From Gammaproteobacteria bacterium (GTDB taxonomy: Bacteria; Pseudomonadota; Gammaproteobacteria; Halothiobacillales; Halothiobacillaceae): a stretch of 16,703 bases of DNA. A model generated the notes under the pieces. The model did not search any database, had not been told where the DNA came from, and saw only the letters and a program-made list of their open reading frames with translations. Made by a program: the position numbers and the translations under genes. This document shows, one piece after another, positions 11,121-16,703 of this stretch (position 1 is its first letter; each line of letters begins with the position of its first letter). The DNA lies in contig JARJMX020000023.1 in NCBI GenBank assembly GCA_029335925.2, positions 1 to 16,703 of the forward strand. Reading direction: 5' to 3'.

Positions 11121-11509
11121 CAGGGTTCAAAGGTAGCGGTCCCAGGCGTCGCCGTTGTGGGCCTGTCCTTTGTCATGGCGGGCATGGATATGGGCGGCTG
11201 GCTTGCGTATGCCTCCGGTGGGCTGATCGACAGCCGCAGGGTTTCGCGCTGGGCGTCCTCGGAATAGAAAGCCAGCGCATAGCGCAGCTTGGACCACAGG
11301 CTGGCGTCCAGGTGCAGGCCCCAGCTTTCCAGGATCTGCAGAATGCCGCACCAGGCCGATGGCACGCAGGTCATAGCGGTAGAGTAGGGCGACTCTGCCA
11401 TCAGCACGCCGGGAATCTCGCCCAGCATCAGCGCGGCCTTGGCTGTCAGCCCAGGATGTGGGCCGCGCAAGCGGATCTCGCGGGTCTTGATGAAATTGCC
11501 GGCATCCAT
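11120..11509 (-). CDS. Small hypothetical protein (possible HMA-like fold) with apparent frame changes
   Basis: The 129-residue frame begins MDAGNFIKTREIRLRGPHPGLTAK and continues LMLGEIPGVLMAES. Later it gives ILQILESWGLHLD and LWSKLRYALAFYSEDAQRE. These pieces recall, from memory, a ~100-130 residue hypothetical family of sulfur-oxidising proteobacteria with a ferredoxin-like, metal-associated shape. Between the pieces, the frame offset by two reads ALLYRYDLRAIGLV, which fits that family better than the annotated frame. The offset frame also gives a better tail ending GDAWDRYL, with stop at 11127-11129. Three frame changes are thus suggested, so the gene is either decaying or affected by errors. 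It is coupled to moeB. Function unknown. Confidence 0.45.
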   Translation of the reverse strand: MDAGNFIKTREIRLRGPHPGLTAKAALMLGEIPGVLMAESPYSTAMTCVPSAWCGILQILESWGLHLDASLWSKLRYALAFYSEDAQRETLRLSISPPEAYASQPPISMPAMTKDRPTTATPGTATFEP

Positions 11510-11577
11510 GCGGTGAAGAGTAGCCCGAGTCTTGTCATGTGCAAATCCTGCCGACGCAAAGCATCCGGAAAAGTTCG

Positions 11578-11613
11578 TTGTATCCTATGCGAAAAAACGA
11601 ATATGTTTTCCCC
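11578..11613 (+). promoter_or_regulatory. Candidate arsR promoter/operator
   Basis: TTGTAT (11578-11583) and TATGTT (11602-11607) are 18 bases apart, placing the expected transcription start at or next to the arsR ATG (11614). The 11-base string TATGTTTTCCC (11602-11612) recurs before the GAPDH gene (14745-14755). An ArsR operator overlapping the -10 region is plausible. No Shine-Dalgarno sequence is present, which suggests a leaderless transcript. Confidence 0.4.
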
Positions 11614-11979
11614 ATGGAACTTGAAAGCCATACCTTCTTCCATGCTCTAAGCGACCCCACCCGCCTCCGTTGTCTGGCTATGTTGCATGCCCAGGGCGAG
11701 CTATGCGTGTGCGATCTTACCCGGGCGCTGGGACTGTCGCAGCCCAAAATTTCCCGCCATCTGGCGCTGCTGCGCGATCTTCACATCGTCAAGGCGCGCC
11801 GGGAGGGGGTGTGGATGCATTACCATCTACACCCGGACCTGCCGGGGTGGATGCGTGAGGTCCTGCGGCTGGCCCTCGAGGCCTTCCTGATCTCGCCCCA
11901 GGGGCTGGCTGACCAGGCAGCTCTTCGCGGCAGAGTGGGGGCTTGTGAGGGCCTGGCGGCGCTGGCTGCTGAGGGCTGA
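11614..11979 (+). CDS. arsR: ArsR-family arsenic-responsive transcriptional repressor
   Basis: A winged-helix SmtB/ArsR repressor of 121 residues, expected to leave DNA when arsenite or a trivalent organoarsenical binds. The start MELESHTFFHALSDPTRLR is typical. ELCVCDL (29-35) at the start of the recognition region supplies the As(III) cysteines C31 and C33. The third cysteine of the plasmid R773 protein (CVCDLC) is a threonine here, and in R773 that cysteine is dispensable. The helix-turn-helix reads ALGLSQPKISRHLALLRD (38-55), almost identical to classical ArsR. In-frame ATG 11587 and GTG 11539 lie upstream, but 11614 fits the family. It lies opposite the permease operon and probably controls this island. 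Confidence 0.92.
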   Translation: MELESHTFFHALSDPTRLRCLAMLHAQGELCVCDLTRALGLSQPKISRHLALLRDLHIVKARREGVWMHYHLHPDLPGWMREVLRLALEAFLISPQGLADQAALRGRVGACEGLAALAAEG

Positions 11980-11991
11980 GGCGGTTCGCCG

Positions 11992-12015
11992 GGCTTGGGT
12001 AGGGTTACCCCAGCC
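11992..12015. terminator. Hairpin between convergent arsR and the thioredoxin-like gene
   Basis: GGCT-T-GGGT pairs with ACCC-C-AGCC (one mismatch) around AGGGTT, in the 25-base gap and overlapping the thioredoxin-like stop codon. Without a T-run it is weak as an intrinsic terminator, but it is the only candidate shared by both converging transcripts. Confidence 0.35.
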
Positions 12016-12238
12016 AGGCTTCGATCTTGGCCCGGTCGGGTATTCCGCCTGCATGCACTACCTGGCCGTCCACCACCACGCCGGGGGTAGACATGACGCC
12101 GTGGCGCATGATCTCGGCGATGTCCTCGACCTTTTCCAGCTTGACCTCTACGCCCTTGGCCTGGGCGGTCTCTTCGATCATCCGGTAGACGGTCTTGCAG
12201 CTTGCGCAGCCGCTGCCTAGGACTTTGATATGCTTCAT
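12005..12238 (-). CDS. Thioredoxin-like redox-active disulfide protein
   Basis: A 77-residue single-domain thioredoxin-fold protein of the small archaeal/bacterial redox-active disulfide type (TIGR00412-like). The active-site CASC (C11, C14) follows a first strand KHIKVLGSG, and the cis-proline loop is MSTPGVVVDG (P52). No signal peptide, so cytosolic. It is the last gene of the permease run, 14 bases after the Cys-Cys protein, with GAGGG as ribosome-binding site. Small thioredoxins of this type often accompany DUF318 permeases. A role in reducing a metalloid or passing a thiol-bound species to the permease is inference. Confidence 0.85.
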   Translation of the reverse strand: MKHIKVLGSGCASCKTVYRMIEETAQAKGVEVKLEKVEDIAEIMRHGVMSTPGVVVDGQVVHAGGIPDRAKIEAWLG

Positions 12239-12252
12239 TGTCCGTTTCCCTC

Positions 12253-12543
12253 TCAGTTGCAGCAGGTATTGGTGCCGCAGCAGCCGTGCCCGGGCAGGGT
12301 GGCCGCAGCGGGGGTGGTGCCGAGCTTTTTGAGCATGCGTGTATCCACCCGCTCGTCGAACAGTTGGTTCGCCTCATCGCGCACATTGCGTGCGAGCTTG
12401 ATCGTTTGGGCAATGTGCTCCGCCGGTACGCCTTGCGCGGCGAGCCGTTCCATCAGGCAGACGTCGCCGCCCGGATGGTTGCTGGCTACGCGTGCGGCCA
12501 GTGTGATCAAATCGAGAATGGAGTCATGCAGACCGTTACTCAT
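12253..12543 (-). CDS. Uncharacterised 96-residue protein with C-terminal Cys-Cys pairs
   Basis: I do not recognise a named family. Residues 1-75 look helical and soluble (DSILDLITLAARVA, AQTIKLARNVRDEANQLFDE) with one cysteine, C29. Then a flexible TTPAAATLPGHG linker leads to a tail CCGTNTCCN with C88-C89 and C94-C95. Paired cysteines spaced like this recall the C-terminal pairs of the arsenite chaperone ArsD, but the rest does not look like ArsD. The ATG (12541-12543) overlaps the stop of the permease gene, so the two are translationally coupled, and the thioredoxin-like gene follows. I infer a thiol metalloid-binding partner of the permease. This is not demonstrated. Confidence 0.8.
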   Translation of the reverse strand: MSNGLHDSILDLITLAARVASNHPGGDVCLMERLAAQGVPAEHIAQTIKLARNVRDEANQLFDERVDTRMLKKLGTTPAAATLPGHGCCGTNTCCN

Positions 12544-13502
12544 AGGGTATGCCTTAGGGTGTTGAACAGGACCCCGACCAGAATGAAGGCCAGGGCGAGA
12601 TAGGCAGCGAACAGGCCGAGCAGCGGCCACTTCACCACCTTGCGCAGGATGATCATCTCCGGCAGCGAGAGCGCGGCGACGGCCATCATGAACGCGAGTA
12701 CGGTGCCGATGGGGACGCCCTTACCGAGCAGGGCCTCGGCTATGGCGATGACCCCGACCGCATCCGAATACAGGGGAATGCCGAGAAGTACCGCGCCGAT
12801 CACCGAAAGCAGACCACCGTCGCCGGTGAAGCGGGCGAGCAGGTCCATCGGCACATAGCCGTGGATCAGCGCGCCCACACCGACACCGAGCAGGACGAAC
12901 TTCCACAGCCGACCGACGATCTCCTTGACCTGACTGACCGCATAAGTGTGACGTCCGCGCAGGCTTTGGTCGGGCTTGGGTAGGGTGGCTTCACCCATGC
13001 GGATCTGCCAGACATAGCCCTCTACCCAGCGCTCGGGACGGAAGCGCTCCAGCACAAAGCCACCGACAAAGGCGACCGTCAGGCCCGCGAGGACATACAT
13101 CAGGGTCAGCTTCCAGCCGATCACCGAGGCAAGCACGATCACGGCCACCTCATTGATCATCGGGCTGGCGATCAGGAAGGAGAGGGTCACACCGAGCGGG
13201 ATGCCAGCCTCGACAAAGCCGATGAACAGCGGCACCGAGGAGCAGGAGCAGAAGGGCGTCACCGCGCCGAGACCGACGGCCAGAAAGCGCGAAGAGAGGT
13301 TGCCGCGATGGCGCAGGAATTCGCGCACCCGCTCCGGGCTGAGCATCCCGCGCAGCCAGCCCATGATGTAAATGACCAGGGTCAGCAGCACCAGGATCTT
13401 GGTCACGTCCATGACAAAGAAGTGCAGGGCGGCGCCCAGCGGCTGTTCCGCCGCCAGGCCTAGGGCGCGGTAGACGAGAAGATCGGCTAGCGGGTCGAAC
13501 AT
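12540..13502 (-). CDS. ArsP-like permease (DUF318 / ArsP_1 family)
   Basis: A 320-residue inner-membrane protein. ArsP, the best known member, exports trivalent methyl and aromatic arsenicals, and other members of this broad family have unknown substrates. About eight hydrophobic helices are visible. The hallmark TPFCSCSSVPLFIGF (82-96), with C85 and C87, is followed by GVTLSFLIASPMINEVA (104-120), and the second half repeats a related pattern, GIPLYSDAVGVIAIAEAL (241-258). The loop around 153-195 is basic and soluble. The ATG at 13500-13502 has GAGGA upstream. The gene overlaps the Cys-Cys gene by ATGA. Neighbouring arsR, ars-type GAPDH and ArsJ support an arsenic role. Substrate not proven. 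Confidence 0.88.
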   Translation of the reverse strand: MFDPLADLLVYRALGLAAEQPLGAALHFFVMDVTKILVLLTLVIYIMGWLRGMLSPERVREFLRHRGNLSSRFLAVGLGAVTPFCSCSSVPLFIGFVEAGIPLGVTLSFLIASPMINEVAVIVLASVIGWKLTLMYVLAGLTVAFVGGFVLERFRPERWVEGYVWQIRMGEATLPKPDQSLRGRHTYAVSQVKEIVGRLWKFVLLGVGVGALIHGYVPMDLLARFTGDGGLLSVIGAVLLGIPLYSDAVGVIAIAEALLGKGVPIGTVLAFMMAVAALSLPEMIILRKVVKWPLLGLFAAYLALAFILVGVLFNTLRHTL

Positions 13503-13745
13503 ATCAGGTCCTCGCAGGAGGAGTTGCTGCCGAACGACGGTGGCAGGGTGGCGTGGCGGATGTTGAAGCGCTCCCCCAACCCGGTCTGGGCGGTATCACC
13601 CAGCAGCACCAGCGCGCCGAACCACCCGCCCGCCACCGCCTCGACGGCAGCAAAGCCGAGGGTCAGTCCAAAACGCGCGGGCAGGGATGCCTTTATGCGT
13701 GTGCGCATGATGGCCATGATGCCCGTGCGCGTGGTCGTGGGCCAT
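13487..13745 (-). pseudogene. Remnant of a CDF cation efflux transporter (internally deleted and frameshifted)
   Basis: Four bases after the stop of the lactamase-fold gene an ATG (13743-13745) opens MAHDHAHGHHGHHAHTHK, the His-rich head of a CzcD/DmeF-type cation diffusion facilitator. Near 13680 the frame shifts and the other frame reads RFGLTLGFAAVEAVAGGWF then LVLLGD, a normal first membrane helix. It then jumps to LGERFNIRHATLPP, which resembles the last strand of a CDF C-terminal domain (typically RF-I-HAT-Q). About 200 residues between these ends are missing, including the metal-binding membrane core. The piece ends at the permease start. I infer a deletion derivative of a once complete metal exporter, unlikely to transport. 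Confidence 0.62.
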
Positions 13746-13748
13746 GGC

Positions 13749-14675
13749 TTACTGACCCTCGAATTGCAGGTAGGTGCGGCTCATCACCGTCTTGTGCCAG
13801 GTGTCGTAATGCTTGAGGTGCTTGAACTGAGGCATGTCGGCATATTTGGCAATCACCTCATCCAGCGGCTCCATATTCTGCGCGGCCTTGCCGATCACAT
13901 TGACCAGGAAGTCGTAATAGTCGCCGGTATCCCGCTTGGCCTTGGCCAGGTCGCATACCTCACCATGGCCGGGGATGATCTTCGCCGGGTTAAGCTTTAC
14001 CAACTCCTGCCAGGCGGCCCAGGCACTCTTGACGCTGGAGGTGTCGTGCACGCCCAGCATGCGGTCGACATAGACTAAATCGCCGGTCACAGCCACCTTC
14101 TGCCTTGGCAGCCAGACCATGGTGTCGTGCGGGAAGTGGGCATTGGTTTCAATGACCTCCAGGGTCTCTCCCCCCAGGGTGAGGGTGGTGCGCGCCTCGT
14201 GCAGCAGGCGGCTGGCATGGACGGGCTTGGTGCCCTCAAAGCGGTCCTTCAATACCTTGGATAGGGCATCCATCTGTCCTGCGGCGACCTTTTTCTGGGT
14301 CTCCACCGTCCCGGCGAAGGCGATGATCTCCGCACCCTTGGCGGCAAAATAGCCATTGCCCAGCCAGCGGTGGTCCTGGCTGCCGGTGTTGATCACCCAC
14401 TTGATTGGCGCTTTGGTGACGCCTGCCACGGTCTTCTCGATCCGCTCGGCGCCCTTGTAGCTTGCGCCGGAGTCGATCAGGATCACGCCGTCCTTGGTGA
14501 CGATAAAGGCCTGGTTGTTGTTCAGACCGTCGTTCTCATAGGTGCGATCGTCGATCGGGCCGACGATGGCGTAGACGTTGTCAACCACCTTGGAGACCTT
14601 GAGTGCCTCCTCGGCGAGGGTGGTGCCGACGGTGGCAAGGAAGAGCGATGCACTGACAAGAAGGCCTTTGAGCAT
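13749..14675 (-). CDS. Exported metallo-beta-lactamase-fold protein with altered metal motif
   Basis: 308 residues with an N-terminal signal peptide (LKGLLVSASLFLATVGTTLA, cleavage near A21) and a lactamase fold: ILIDSG (65-70), VINTGSQDHRWLGN (94-107), NAHFPHDTMVWLP (178-190), VTGDLVY (197-203) and IPGHGEV (234-240). The usual HxHxDH motif is replaced by TGSQDH, so the first two zinc histidines are absent, while D101, H102, H180 or H183, D199 and H237 remain. That would leave one metal site largely intact. It is first in the permease run and divergent from the GAPDH gene. Substrate unknown; a periplasmic hydrolase or binding protein linked to metalloid stress is inference. Confidence 0.82.
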   Translation of the reverse strand: MLKGLLVSASLFLATVGTTLAEEALKVSKVVDNVYAIVGPIDDRTYENDGLNNNQAFIVTKDGVILIDSGASYKGAERIEKTVAGVTKAPIKWVINTGSQDHRWLGNGYFAAKGAEIIAFAGTVETQKKVAAGQMDALSKVLKDRFEGTKPVHASRLLHEARTTLTLGGETLEVIETNAHFPHDTMVWLPRQKVAVTGDLVYVDRMLGVHDTSSVKSAWAAWQELVKLNPAKIIPGHGEVCDLAKAKRDTGDYYDFLVNVIGKAAQNMEPLDEVIAKYADMPQFKHLKHYDTWHKTVMSRTYLQFEGQ

Positions 14676-14710
14676 AGTGTCACCTTGAGGAGAGGGAGGG
14701 CTGCTCCGTC

Positions 14711-14738
14711 ATGATATATACATCATCATATATTACAA
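14711..14738 (-). promoter_or_regulatory. Candidate promoter with inverted-repeat operator for the lactamase-fold/permease operon
   Basis: On the minus strand TTGTAA (14733-14738) and TATCAT (14711-14716) are 16 bases apart, 36 bases before the gene start. The spacer holds ATATAT arms about eight bases apart (14714-14733), a layout common for ArsR/SmtB operators between -35 and -10. This AT-rich block contrasts sharply with its surroundings. Tentative. Confidence 0.45.
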
Positions 14739-14744
14739 ATATCG

Positions 14745-14777
14745 TATGTTTTCCCGGCAGGCAGGGTCTGCCTGTCC
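14745..14777 (+). promoter_or_regulatory. Shared 11-base element and leader hairpin before the GAPDH gene
   Basis: TATGTTTTCCC (14745-14755) is identical to 11602-11612 before arsR and may contain the -10 box. It is followed by CAGGCAG-GGT-CTGCCTG, a perfect 7-bp stem (14758-14774), in what would be the 5' leader. The GAPDH start has its own GAGG site downstream. Regulation by ArsR is inference. Confidence 0.4.
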
Positions 14778-14802
14778 CCACTGTTAGACTGAGGTCCACA
14801 TC

Positions 14803-15807
14803 ATGAGCATCCGTGTTGCCATCAATGGCTTTGGGCGTATGGGCCGTCTCGGCTTGCGCGCCGCCTGGGACAACCCTTCCTTCGAAATCGTCCACATCAA
14901 CGAGATTAGTGCGGATGCGGCCGCGCTCGCGCACCTACTCAAATATGACTCGGTGCATGGCCGTTGGGGGCGAGAGGTGCGCGCCGAGGATGGCGCGCTC
15001 GTGGTGGATGGTCGGCGGGTGGGTTACAGCATGGAAAAGGACCCGGCCAAGATCGACTGGGCCGGCCTTGGCGTGGATATCGTGGTCGAGTCCACCGGCA
15101 AGCTGCGGACGATCGAGCAAATCCAGCCCCACTTCGAGCGCGGGGCGAAGAAAGTGGTGGTGGCGGCACCGGTGAAGGGCGCACTCAATATCGTCATGGG
15201 GGTGAACGATCATCTGTATGATCCCGCCGCGCATCACCTCGTCACCGCCGCCTCCTGCACCACCAACTGTCTGGCCCCCCTAGTCAAGGTCATGCATGAG
15301 CACATTGGCATCCTCCATGGCACCATGACCACCCTGCACGATCTGACTAATACCCAGTCCATCCTCGATCGGGGGCACAAGGACCTGCGCCGTGCCCGTG
15401 CCAGCGGTCTCTCGCTCATTCCCACCACCACCGGCTCGGCCAAGGCCATCGGCGAGATCTTTCCTGAGCTCAATGGCAAGCTGAACGGTCACGCCGTGCG
15501 CGTGCCTTTGGCGAATGCCTCGCTGACCGACTTCGTGTTCGAGGCGGCACGTCCAACGACGGTCGAAGAGGTCAATGGTTTGCTCAAGGCGGCGGCCGAA
15601 GGGGAGCTGGCAGGCATTTTGGGCTACGAAACGCTGCCCCTGGTTTCCGTCGACTTCAAGGATGATCCGCGTTCGTCCATCGTCGATGCCCTCTCCACCT
15701 TGGTCATCGATGGCACCCAGGTGAAGGTCATGGCCTGGTATGACAACGAGTGGGGCTATGCCAACCGTATGATGGAACTGGTGGCGAAGGTGGCGCGGGG
15801 GATGTAA
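14803..15807 (+). CDS. gap: Arsenic-island glyceraldehyde-3-phosphate dehydrogenase (ArsJ partner)
   Basis: NAD-dependent dehydrogenase of 334 residues. With arsenate in place of phosphate, such enzymes form unstable 1-arseno-3-phosphoglycerate, which ArsJ exports; that pair is described in Pseudomonas aeruginosa ars operons. Visible are the NAD-binding INGFGRMGR (7-15), the catalytic C151 in [10 protein letters not shown] with H178 in TLHDLTNTQ, and [11 protein letters not shown] near the end. The arsJ gene directly downstream and the divergent arsenic genes identify it as the dedicated ars copy rather than the glycolytic one. The ATG has GAGG eight bases upstream. A terminator-like hairpin separates it from arsJ by 95 bases. 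Confidence 0.93.
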
Positions 15808-15902: not shown

Positions 15903-16703
15903 ATGAACGCTGATCTGCGCAACTACGCCATCGTCACCGGCAACTACTGGGCCTTCACCCTCACTGATGGGGCCCTGCGCATGCTGGTGGTGCTGCATTT
16001 CCATCAGCTCGGCTACACGCCGCTCGAGATCGCTATGCTGTTCCTCTTCTATGAGGTGTTCGGCATCGTCACCAATGCGGTGGGCGGGTGGCTTGCGGCG
16101 CGCATCGGTGTGAACCGCACCATGCAGATGGGCACGGCGCTTCAGATCGTCGCCCTCGGGATGTTGCTGGCGCCGGCAGCCTGGCTGACGGTGCCTTACG
16201 TGATGGCCGCGCAGGCACTGTCCGGCATCGCCAAGGACCTCAACAAGATGAGCGCCAAGTCCTCGGTCAAGCTGGTGGCCGGGGAGGGCAGCCTGTTCAG
16301 GTGGGTGGCGGTGCTGACTGGCTCGAAGAACGCACTCAAGGGTGTGGGTTTCTTCCTCGGTGGCCTACTTTTGGCGGTGCTCGGCTTCCACGGCGCGCTG
16401 TGGACACTGATCGCCCTGCTGCTCGTGGGTCTGGTCATCACCCTCGTTTTGCCAAGCGGGCTTGGCATGGTGAAGGGCAAGCCGAAGTTTGCCCAGGTGT
16501 TCTCCAACACCCCGGCGATCAACTGGCTGGCCGGGGCGCGTTTCTTTCTGTTCGGCGCGCGCGACGTGTGGTTCGTGGTCGGCCTGCCGGTCTACCTCTC
16601 CGGCGTGCTCGGCTGGGGGTTTGCCGAGGTCGGCGGCTTCCTTGCCCTCTGGGTGATTGGCTACGGTATCGTCAAGGCCGCTACGCCCGGCCTGTGGAGA
16701 AAG
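15903..16703 (+). CDS. arsJ: ArsJ, organoarsenical (1-arseno-3-phosphoglycerate) efflux MFS transporter, C-terminus cut
   Basis: Major facilitator family exporter that removes 1-arseno-3-phosphoglycerate made by the neighbouring dehydrogenase, giving arsenate resistance. The 267 residues in the window run to the right edge without a stop. A complete protein is about 410, so roughly the last third is missing. The start MNADLRNYAIVTGNYWAFTLTDGALRMLV is characteristic of ArsJ. Several membrane helices follow, with the conserved loop GIAKDLNKMSAKSSVK between them. The ATG at 15903 is preferred to the in-frame ATG at 15897, because GAGGA lies eight bases before it and only two before the other. 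Confidence 0.94.
   Translation, partial: MNADLRNYAIVTGNYWAFTLTDGALRMLVVLHFHQLGYTPLEIAMLFLFYEVFGIVTNAVGGWLAARIGVNRTMQMGTALQIVALGMLLAPAAWLTVPYVMAAQALSGIAKDLNKMSAKSSVKLVAGEGSLFRWVAVLTGSKNALKGVGFFLGGLLLAVLGFHGALWTLIALLLVGLVITLVLPSGLGMVKGKPKFAQVFSNTPAINWLAGARFFLFGARDVWFVVGLPVYLSGVLGWGFAEVGGFLALWVIGYGIVKAATPGLWRK

Follow-up and report, generated by a model that had tools for sequence, protein, structure and literature searches.

The question raised by this locus is what a 96-residue protein with paired cysteines at its C-terminus does between an ArsP-type permease and a thioredoxin-like protein, and how it relates to arsenic-handling proteins already described. The window (the whole stretch of DNA analysed, 16,703 nucleotides) contains the following features.

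11539..11979, plus strand: ArsR/SmtB-type metalloregulator, convergent with the thioredoxin gene (Pfam and NCBIfam models)
12005..12238, minus strand: thioredoxin-fold CxxC protein of the MTH895/ArsE family (TIGR00412, 95.3 bits, cut-off 62)
12253..12543, minus strand: CC-tail protein, 96 aa, AhpD/CMD-like helical body, flexible linker and C-terminal CC-x4-CC (sequence, AlphaFold model, family conservation)
12259..12282, minus strand: codons of the tail motif CCGTNTCC, residues 88-95 (sequence; motif kept across the family)
12540..12543, minus strand: ATGA overlap of permease stop and CC-tail protein start (sequence)
12540..13502, minus strand: ArsP_1 (DUF318) permease, 320 aa (PF03773, E 1.9e-67, 227.9 bits, cut-off 32.3)
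13487..13717, minus strand: remnant of a CDF cation-transporter gene, middle missing, between hydrolase and permease (two ends match the CDF of locus L019)
13749..14675, minus strand: SoxH-like metallo-beta-lactamase-fold hydrolase, first gene of the run (Pfam and NCBIfam models)
14803..15807, plus strand: ArsJ-associated glyceraldehyde-3-phosphate dehydrogenase, divergent from the hydrolase gene (NF033735, 543 bits, cut-off 450)
15903..16703, plus strand: ArsJ organoarsenical efflux transporter, start approximate, running past the window end (NF033734, 420.8 bits, cut-off 400)

The reading frame of the CC-tail protein, read from ATG, ends in GHGCCGTNTCCN, the closing residues of the same 96-residue frame also being given as GCCGTNTCCN. 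The original prediction had described a small helical protein with a cysteine-pair tail on a flexible linker, translationally coupled to an ArsP-like permease and followed by a CxxC thioredoxin-like protein, and this description was confirmed. The AlphaFold model of the protein (mean pLDDT 87.7) has helices at residues 7-20, 27-36 and 41-74, and a last block of ten residues with a pLDDT of about 50; this low-confidence tail is presumably flexible. Coupling to the permease is by the ATGA overlap, and 14 nt separate the CC-tail gene from the thioredoxin gene downstream. Against NCBIfam, the permease reached no equivalog cut-off, its only matches, SaoE and the SO_0444 Cu/Zn transporter, both falling below. 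A scan of 11400-14900 for promoters and terminators gave signals no more frequent than in shuffled sequence, a repeat scan gave only short inverted pairs, and no ArsM scored above cut-off in the window's genome (92% complete). At L019, from the same genus, a CDF gene occupies the place held by the CDF remnant in the window.

The tail is kept across the family. Of 101 loci, 99 have CC at the very C-terminus or one residue short of it, and in 98 the last 60 residues contain two CC pairs (99 of 104 with three later loci). The five that lack two pairs are L024, L058, L059, L208 and L209, and the tails of L059, L208 and L209 read CGC...CC. The CC-x4-CC form singled out by the original prediction was present in all ten near relatives, the window protein included, but it is a local form: the family norm is a spacing of 8 between the pairs, as in CCTPTxSGxSCC (90 of the 98 loci with two pairs). 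Counts on profile matches (127 of 128 listed proteins) are biased because the profiles contained the tail, and loci found through the body are the fairer check. All 80 loci located through two body peptides, with a full-length sequence used afterwards to confirm and rank them, have two CC pairs, and a body-only profile run over all available locus ORFs gave 107 distinct matches, 99 of them with two pairs. The background rate of a C-terminal CC...CC was 1 in 554 neighbour proteins outside nine labelled clusters, that one being an ArsI. The two-pair tail is not a product of chance.

Some members carry three CC pairs (L057, L060, L061, L062) or four (L063, L064), as might be expected if the arm were a passive, metallothionein-like thiol buffer that soaks up soft metalloids. 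However, 88 of 101 members have only 5 or 6 cysteines, and both the body and the non-cysteine spacer TPTxSGxS are conserved, features that a buffer would not need. We consider a buffer improbable. In a separate observation, L206 (1453-1590) and L210 (6024-6161; G643) have a very short frame that passes from the family's body start almost directly into the ACC end, possibly a shrunken relic.

The CC-tail protein is assigned to no family in Pfam, NCBIfam or PADLOC, which agrees with the proposal that it was an undescribed candidate. Library matches to CbbQ_C, TFIIB, RicT, PRK10593 and DrmC (E 0.009 or above) and PDB sequence matches to PheRS and chitinase (E 1.5 or above) were taken as chance. 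A single-sequence search returned 10 proteins, the query counted, with Halothiobacillaceae MAGs as the nearest named relatives; divergent members were recovered by a genome search of relatives. With an 11-sequence profile, at least 911 proteins matched at E≤1 (7993 candidates scored), and among the 120 matches listed of these 911, all had E 2e-23 or better and none had a precomputed Pfam domain. A second, wider profile (A5) matched at least 36 proteins at E≤1e-5.

When each species was represented by a single genome, scanning gave 183 relatives. Titles among the best 80 of the 183, which were kept, included Thiobacillus (20), Sulfuricella (9), Hydrogenophilales (5), Sideroxydans (3) and Sulfuriferula (2), many others being titled only Betaproteobacteria, Proteobacteria or Pseudomonadota bacterium. 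Sulfur oxidation is a trait of several of these genera. The class genome sample had a match at E≤0.01 in 25 of 369 genomes, 16 of these at 3e-20 or better, the window's included, and the phylum sample had a match at E≤1e-5 in 5 of 398, two of the five lying outside the class. Viral scans with the near-relative alignment A1 and with A3 found no family member, and a genome scan with A1 gave no match.

A single plasmid among 72,556 was positive, pSCD of Sulfuricella denitrificans, on which the gene order is ArsR, rhodanese, ArsC, ACR3, GDCCVxC protein, permease, CC-tail protein, arsenite methyltransferase, two hypotheticals, thioredoxin and ArsC. In this record, the only annotated one for a plasmid, the CC-tail protein is called a 'hypothetical protein'. 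The GDCCVxC-domain (seleno)protein gene between ACR3 and permease (L213, 5707-5925) encodes another small cysteine protein of the same operon. Among the open-licence papers retrieved, no title or visible abstract opening describes a protein of this kind. The CC-tail proteins are a conserved family of ars operons, unnamed in the libraries searched.

The body of the protein is an AhpD/CMD-type helical domain without CxxC, and the CC-tail protein has the fold of PF02627. The window protein itself had no CMD match at E≤1. Within the family, L065 (32.2 bits) and L024 (23.7 bits) exceed the PF02627 cut-off of 23, L023 (20.4), L057 (18.8) and P0103 (14.2) stay under it, and P0088 and P0037 have no CMD match at E≤0.1. 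By alignment register, the redox CxxC would fall at residues 23-26, where the window protein reads HPGG. The motif is absent from all 22 aligned members; a cysteine stands at its first place in 9 of them and at its second in none. CMD proteins free of CxxC also exist outside the family (4 of 15 aligned). The only cysteine ahead of the tail in the window protein is residue 29. The family thus differs from AhpD/CMD proteins in that it lacks CxxC, has gained the CC...CC arm and is tied to ars operons. Judged by its name, NF041537 (ArsM_AhpD_UU), a selenoprotein fusion of arsenite methyltransferase and AhpD, likewise links an AhpD domain with arsenic handling; its ArsM part alone was matched, by the ArsM of L074.

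Two further genes touch on this relationship. At L065 (5971-6312), a second copy in one genome has kept the CC pairs and has a clear CMD score and no ars neighbours, a possible bridge to ordinary AhpD proteins. At L064 (4079-4417, minus strand), a few genes away from an ArsP-CC-thioredoxin module and on the other strand, there is an ordinary CMD-like gene whose CxxC is intact.

ArsD is a well-established arsenic metallochaperone of thioredoxin-like fold. Membership of the CC-tail protein in this family was rejected, as it had no match to PF06953 or NF033727 at E≤1, and the earlier remark that the pairs recall ArsD and the body does not was correct. Both are small proteins of ars operons, and the CC-tail protein has C-terminal vicinal pairs of the ArsD type (CC-x4-CC, residues 88-95), as R773 ArsD has at Cys112-113 and Cys119-120. 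The chaperone site of R773 ArsD is Cys12/13/18, its C-terminal pairs are linked to regulation, and such pairs are given as absent from Bacillus CDB3 ArsD (PMC4562236). The CC-tail protein, in contrast, has an all-helical model without the N-terminal cysteine triad, so that the Cys12/13/18 site in a thioredoxin-like fold is missing from it. It goes with ArsP or ACR3, and the annotation of the single annotated operon (pSCD) lists no ArsA. In its proposed role it resembles a metalloid escort; it is not ArsD, and it is a relative of AhpD without the redox motif.

The regulatory link of the R773 pairs suggests another role, in which the CC pairs would sense arsenicals and gate the permease or a repressor, as the ArsD pairs are linked to repression. 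A CC also occurs in the last 30 residues of ArsR proteins from these loci; the first ArsR cluster has it in 15 of 35 proteins, the second in all 15. Yet no DNA-binding domain model scored above cut-off for the window protein, an ArsR is already present in 82 of 104 loci, and the CC-tail gene is coupled to the permease. A sensing or regulatory partner is quite unlikely.

In order to describe the operon context, genes around the family loci were counted by tblastn. Two entries of a set of 103, L066 and L067, were left out because they are ordinary CMD proteins (20.7 and 23.8 bits) without ars neighbours; L068 and L069 contained no family member, and L210 was excluded as a 35-bit fragment. The 104 family loci had ArsP in 97, thioredoxin in 95, ArsR in 82, ArsC in 77, ACR3 in 74, a metallo-beta-lactamase-fold protein in 41 and ArsM in 39, followed by CDF (17), ArsI (10), ArsB (8) and ArsJ (5). 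Neighbourhood clustering placed ArsP in 91 of 103 loci. ArsP and thioredoxin occur together at 92 of 104 loci, and many of the loci are larger ars operons, often with ArsR-ArsC-ACR3. At 90 of 104 loci, a same-strand ArsP gene has its end no more than 150 bp upstream of the CC-tail gene; where a permease was called just upstream, the two genes overlap by 4 nt in 45 of 88 cases and by any length in 48. Relatives of the SoxH-like hydrolase of the window (13749-14675) account for the count of 41 above.

Since many of the loci stem from close relatives, a broad sample was drawn, consisting of 19 loci spread over 18 genomes that carry 16 family labels, which we chose among the strong matches of the class and phylum samples, the window excluded. 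ArsP and thioredoxin were both present in 18 of these 19 loci, a further diagnostic ars gene in 11 and ArsM in 1; the only locus without ars genes was the second copy at L065. Around 14 ordinary CMD loci used as a control, no gene of the query set lay within 1.5 kb, a distance within which family loci had ArsP in 96 of 104 cases and thioredoxin in 92. The family does co-occur with DUF318 permeases, linkage to ars genes recurs across lineages, and the homologues are not a set that lies away from arsenic genes and lacks the cysteine pairs. The ArsM link is restricted to a clade.

An ars gene besides the permease (ACR3, ArsC, ArsM, ArsB or ArsJ) is present at 91 of 104 loci, and ArsP or any of these at 103 of 104. 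At 13 of the 104 loci, and 8 of 19 in the broad sample, none of the five was found in the stretch covered, and at those loci arsenic therefore rests on the ArsP_1 and ArsR-type genes alone. Such loci, together with the sub-threshold SaoE and Cu/Zn transporter matches of the window's permease, would be in line with an ArsP_1 permease that transports not arsenic but a different thiophilic species (antimony, selenium, tellurium or a copper/zinc-like ion). Against this stand the 91 loci with a diagnostic gene and the many ArsR-ArsC-ACR3 operons, and we regard a non-arsenic cargo as highly improbable.

Arms similar to that of the CC-tail protein were found on other proteins of the same operons. A C-terminal CC...CC arm is present on 20 of 67 thioredoxin neighbours (for example GGGGCCGGCC and SCCGCCGKE), and one ArsI passes the same test (139.4 bits with the ArsI model, cut-off 116). 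An N-terminal CC...CC was seen in 12 of 31 ArsM. No C-terminal CC...CC was found among 91 ArsP, 88 ArsC, 59 ACR3, 36 metallo-beta-lactamase-fold, 50 ArsR-type and 16 CDF proteins. The thioredoxin of L171, a permease locus without CC-tail protein, carries SSCCPADDNCC. As side observations, ArsI-like C-As lyase homologues in operons with the CC protein (L081, L082, L085, L108, L123) have long cysteine-rich C-terminal tails in five of five cases, and at L108 (7769-8194, plus strand) a partial ArsM ORF, the gene being in two pieces, ends in CCTPIPSGKSCC, the same CCTPxxSGKSCC tail as in CC proteins. At L174 (829-1467, minus strand), a locus without CC-tail protein, one protein comprises a hydrophobic segment, probably a membrane segment, successive CC pairs and a thioredoxin of TIGR00412, next to an ArsP-type permease.

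Taken together, the place in the operon, the conserved arm, the missing CxxC, the fold and the similar arms on operon partners are observations that fit an accessory escort, a role we put forward tentatively, at slightly less than an even chance. The AhpD/CMD-type domain without redox CxxC would serve as a docking body, and the flexible C-terminal arm with its two vicinal pairs would capture trivalent arsenicals (arsenite and/or methylarsenite) and offer them to the ArsP-type permease translated together with the protein, with ACR3 as the recipient at loci lacking ArsP. The ArsE-type thioredoxin of the operon would keep the thiols of the arm reduced. Vicinal thiols bind arsenite strongly and Campylobacter ArsP exports methylarsenite and trivalent roxarsone, not arsenite (PMC6205960). 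From this binding and export, and from the ArsD pairs, we infer an arm that catches arsenicals near the pump; metalloid binding, docking, hand-off and reduction by thioredoxin are all inferred. Co-evolution of arsM and arsP has been stated (PMC11653729). Methylarsenite as the specific cargo was not adopted because ArsM is clade-restricted.

Service in thiol chemistry is the main rival to the escort role. The tail would then work with thioredoxin as a dithiol/disulfide relay, either in support of the methyltransferase or to reduce pentavalent (methyl)arsenicals for export. In favour of this, the body is similar to the redox fold of AhpD, an ArsM gene begins no more than 150 bp downstream at 35 of 104 loci, and thioredoxin is both frequent at the loci and, in 20 of 67 cases, armed in a similar way. 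Against a redox or donor function, none of the 22 aligned members has CxxC, ArsM is found at one broad-sample locus and is lacking above cut-off in the window's genome, and the constant neighbour is the permease, not the methyltransferase. We consider this reading rather unlikely.

The escort role may be put in a bolder form, which seems possible and somewhat doubtful: the CC-tail protein would be a second, ArsD-independent escort, a redox-dead adaptor of AhpD fold whose swinging double-dithiol arm takes up trivalent (methyl)arsenicals and loads ArsP or ACR3, and the arm would be a portable module also found on thioredoxin, ArsI and others. Known ArsP/DUF318 systems share the Pfam family of the permease, whereas here an extra escort-like gene lies between permease and thioredoxin, the permease substrate being putative. 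The family is widespread, has no library name, lies beside arsenical pumps and has a fold other than that of ArsD. Its description would give a name to a recurring 'hypothetical protein' of ars operons and would make the receipt of cargo by an ArsP-type permease directly testable.

The original prediction of a three-gene module stood as far as the frequent company of ArsP and thioredoxin is concerned, but the module is not strict. Relatives of the permease gave 48 matches in 46 of 369 class genomes, the window included, and the best 30 of these 48 loci had the CC-tail protein in 13 and lacked it in 17, two of the latter (L167, L173) reaching contig ends. On a permease tree of the 30 loci, presence of the CC-tail protein needs 11 changes, at least 5 of them forced by well-supported branches, and the trait showed no stronger clustering than randomised labels did (443 of 500 shuffles scored as low); the bootstrap had not converged. 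The CC-tail protein is therefore an optional part, repeatedly gained or lost. Thioredoxin was present at 13 of 13 permease loci with the CC-tail protein versus 12 of 17 without, an excess that is suggestive only. At L019, L079 and L101, the CC-tail gene is the neighbour of ACR3 and the stretch covered showed no ArsP; at L079 and L101 that stretch ends soon after the CC-tail gene. At L209 the order is ArsP, thioredoxin, CC protein. Just downstream of an ArsP-type permease at L047 (G324 C219, 7675-7782) lies a family fragment with an internal stop, a decayed copy that fits repeated loss.
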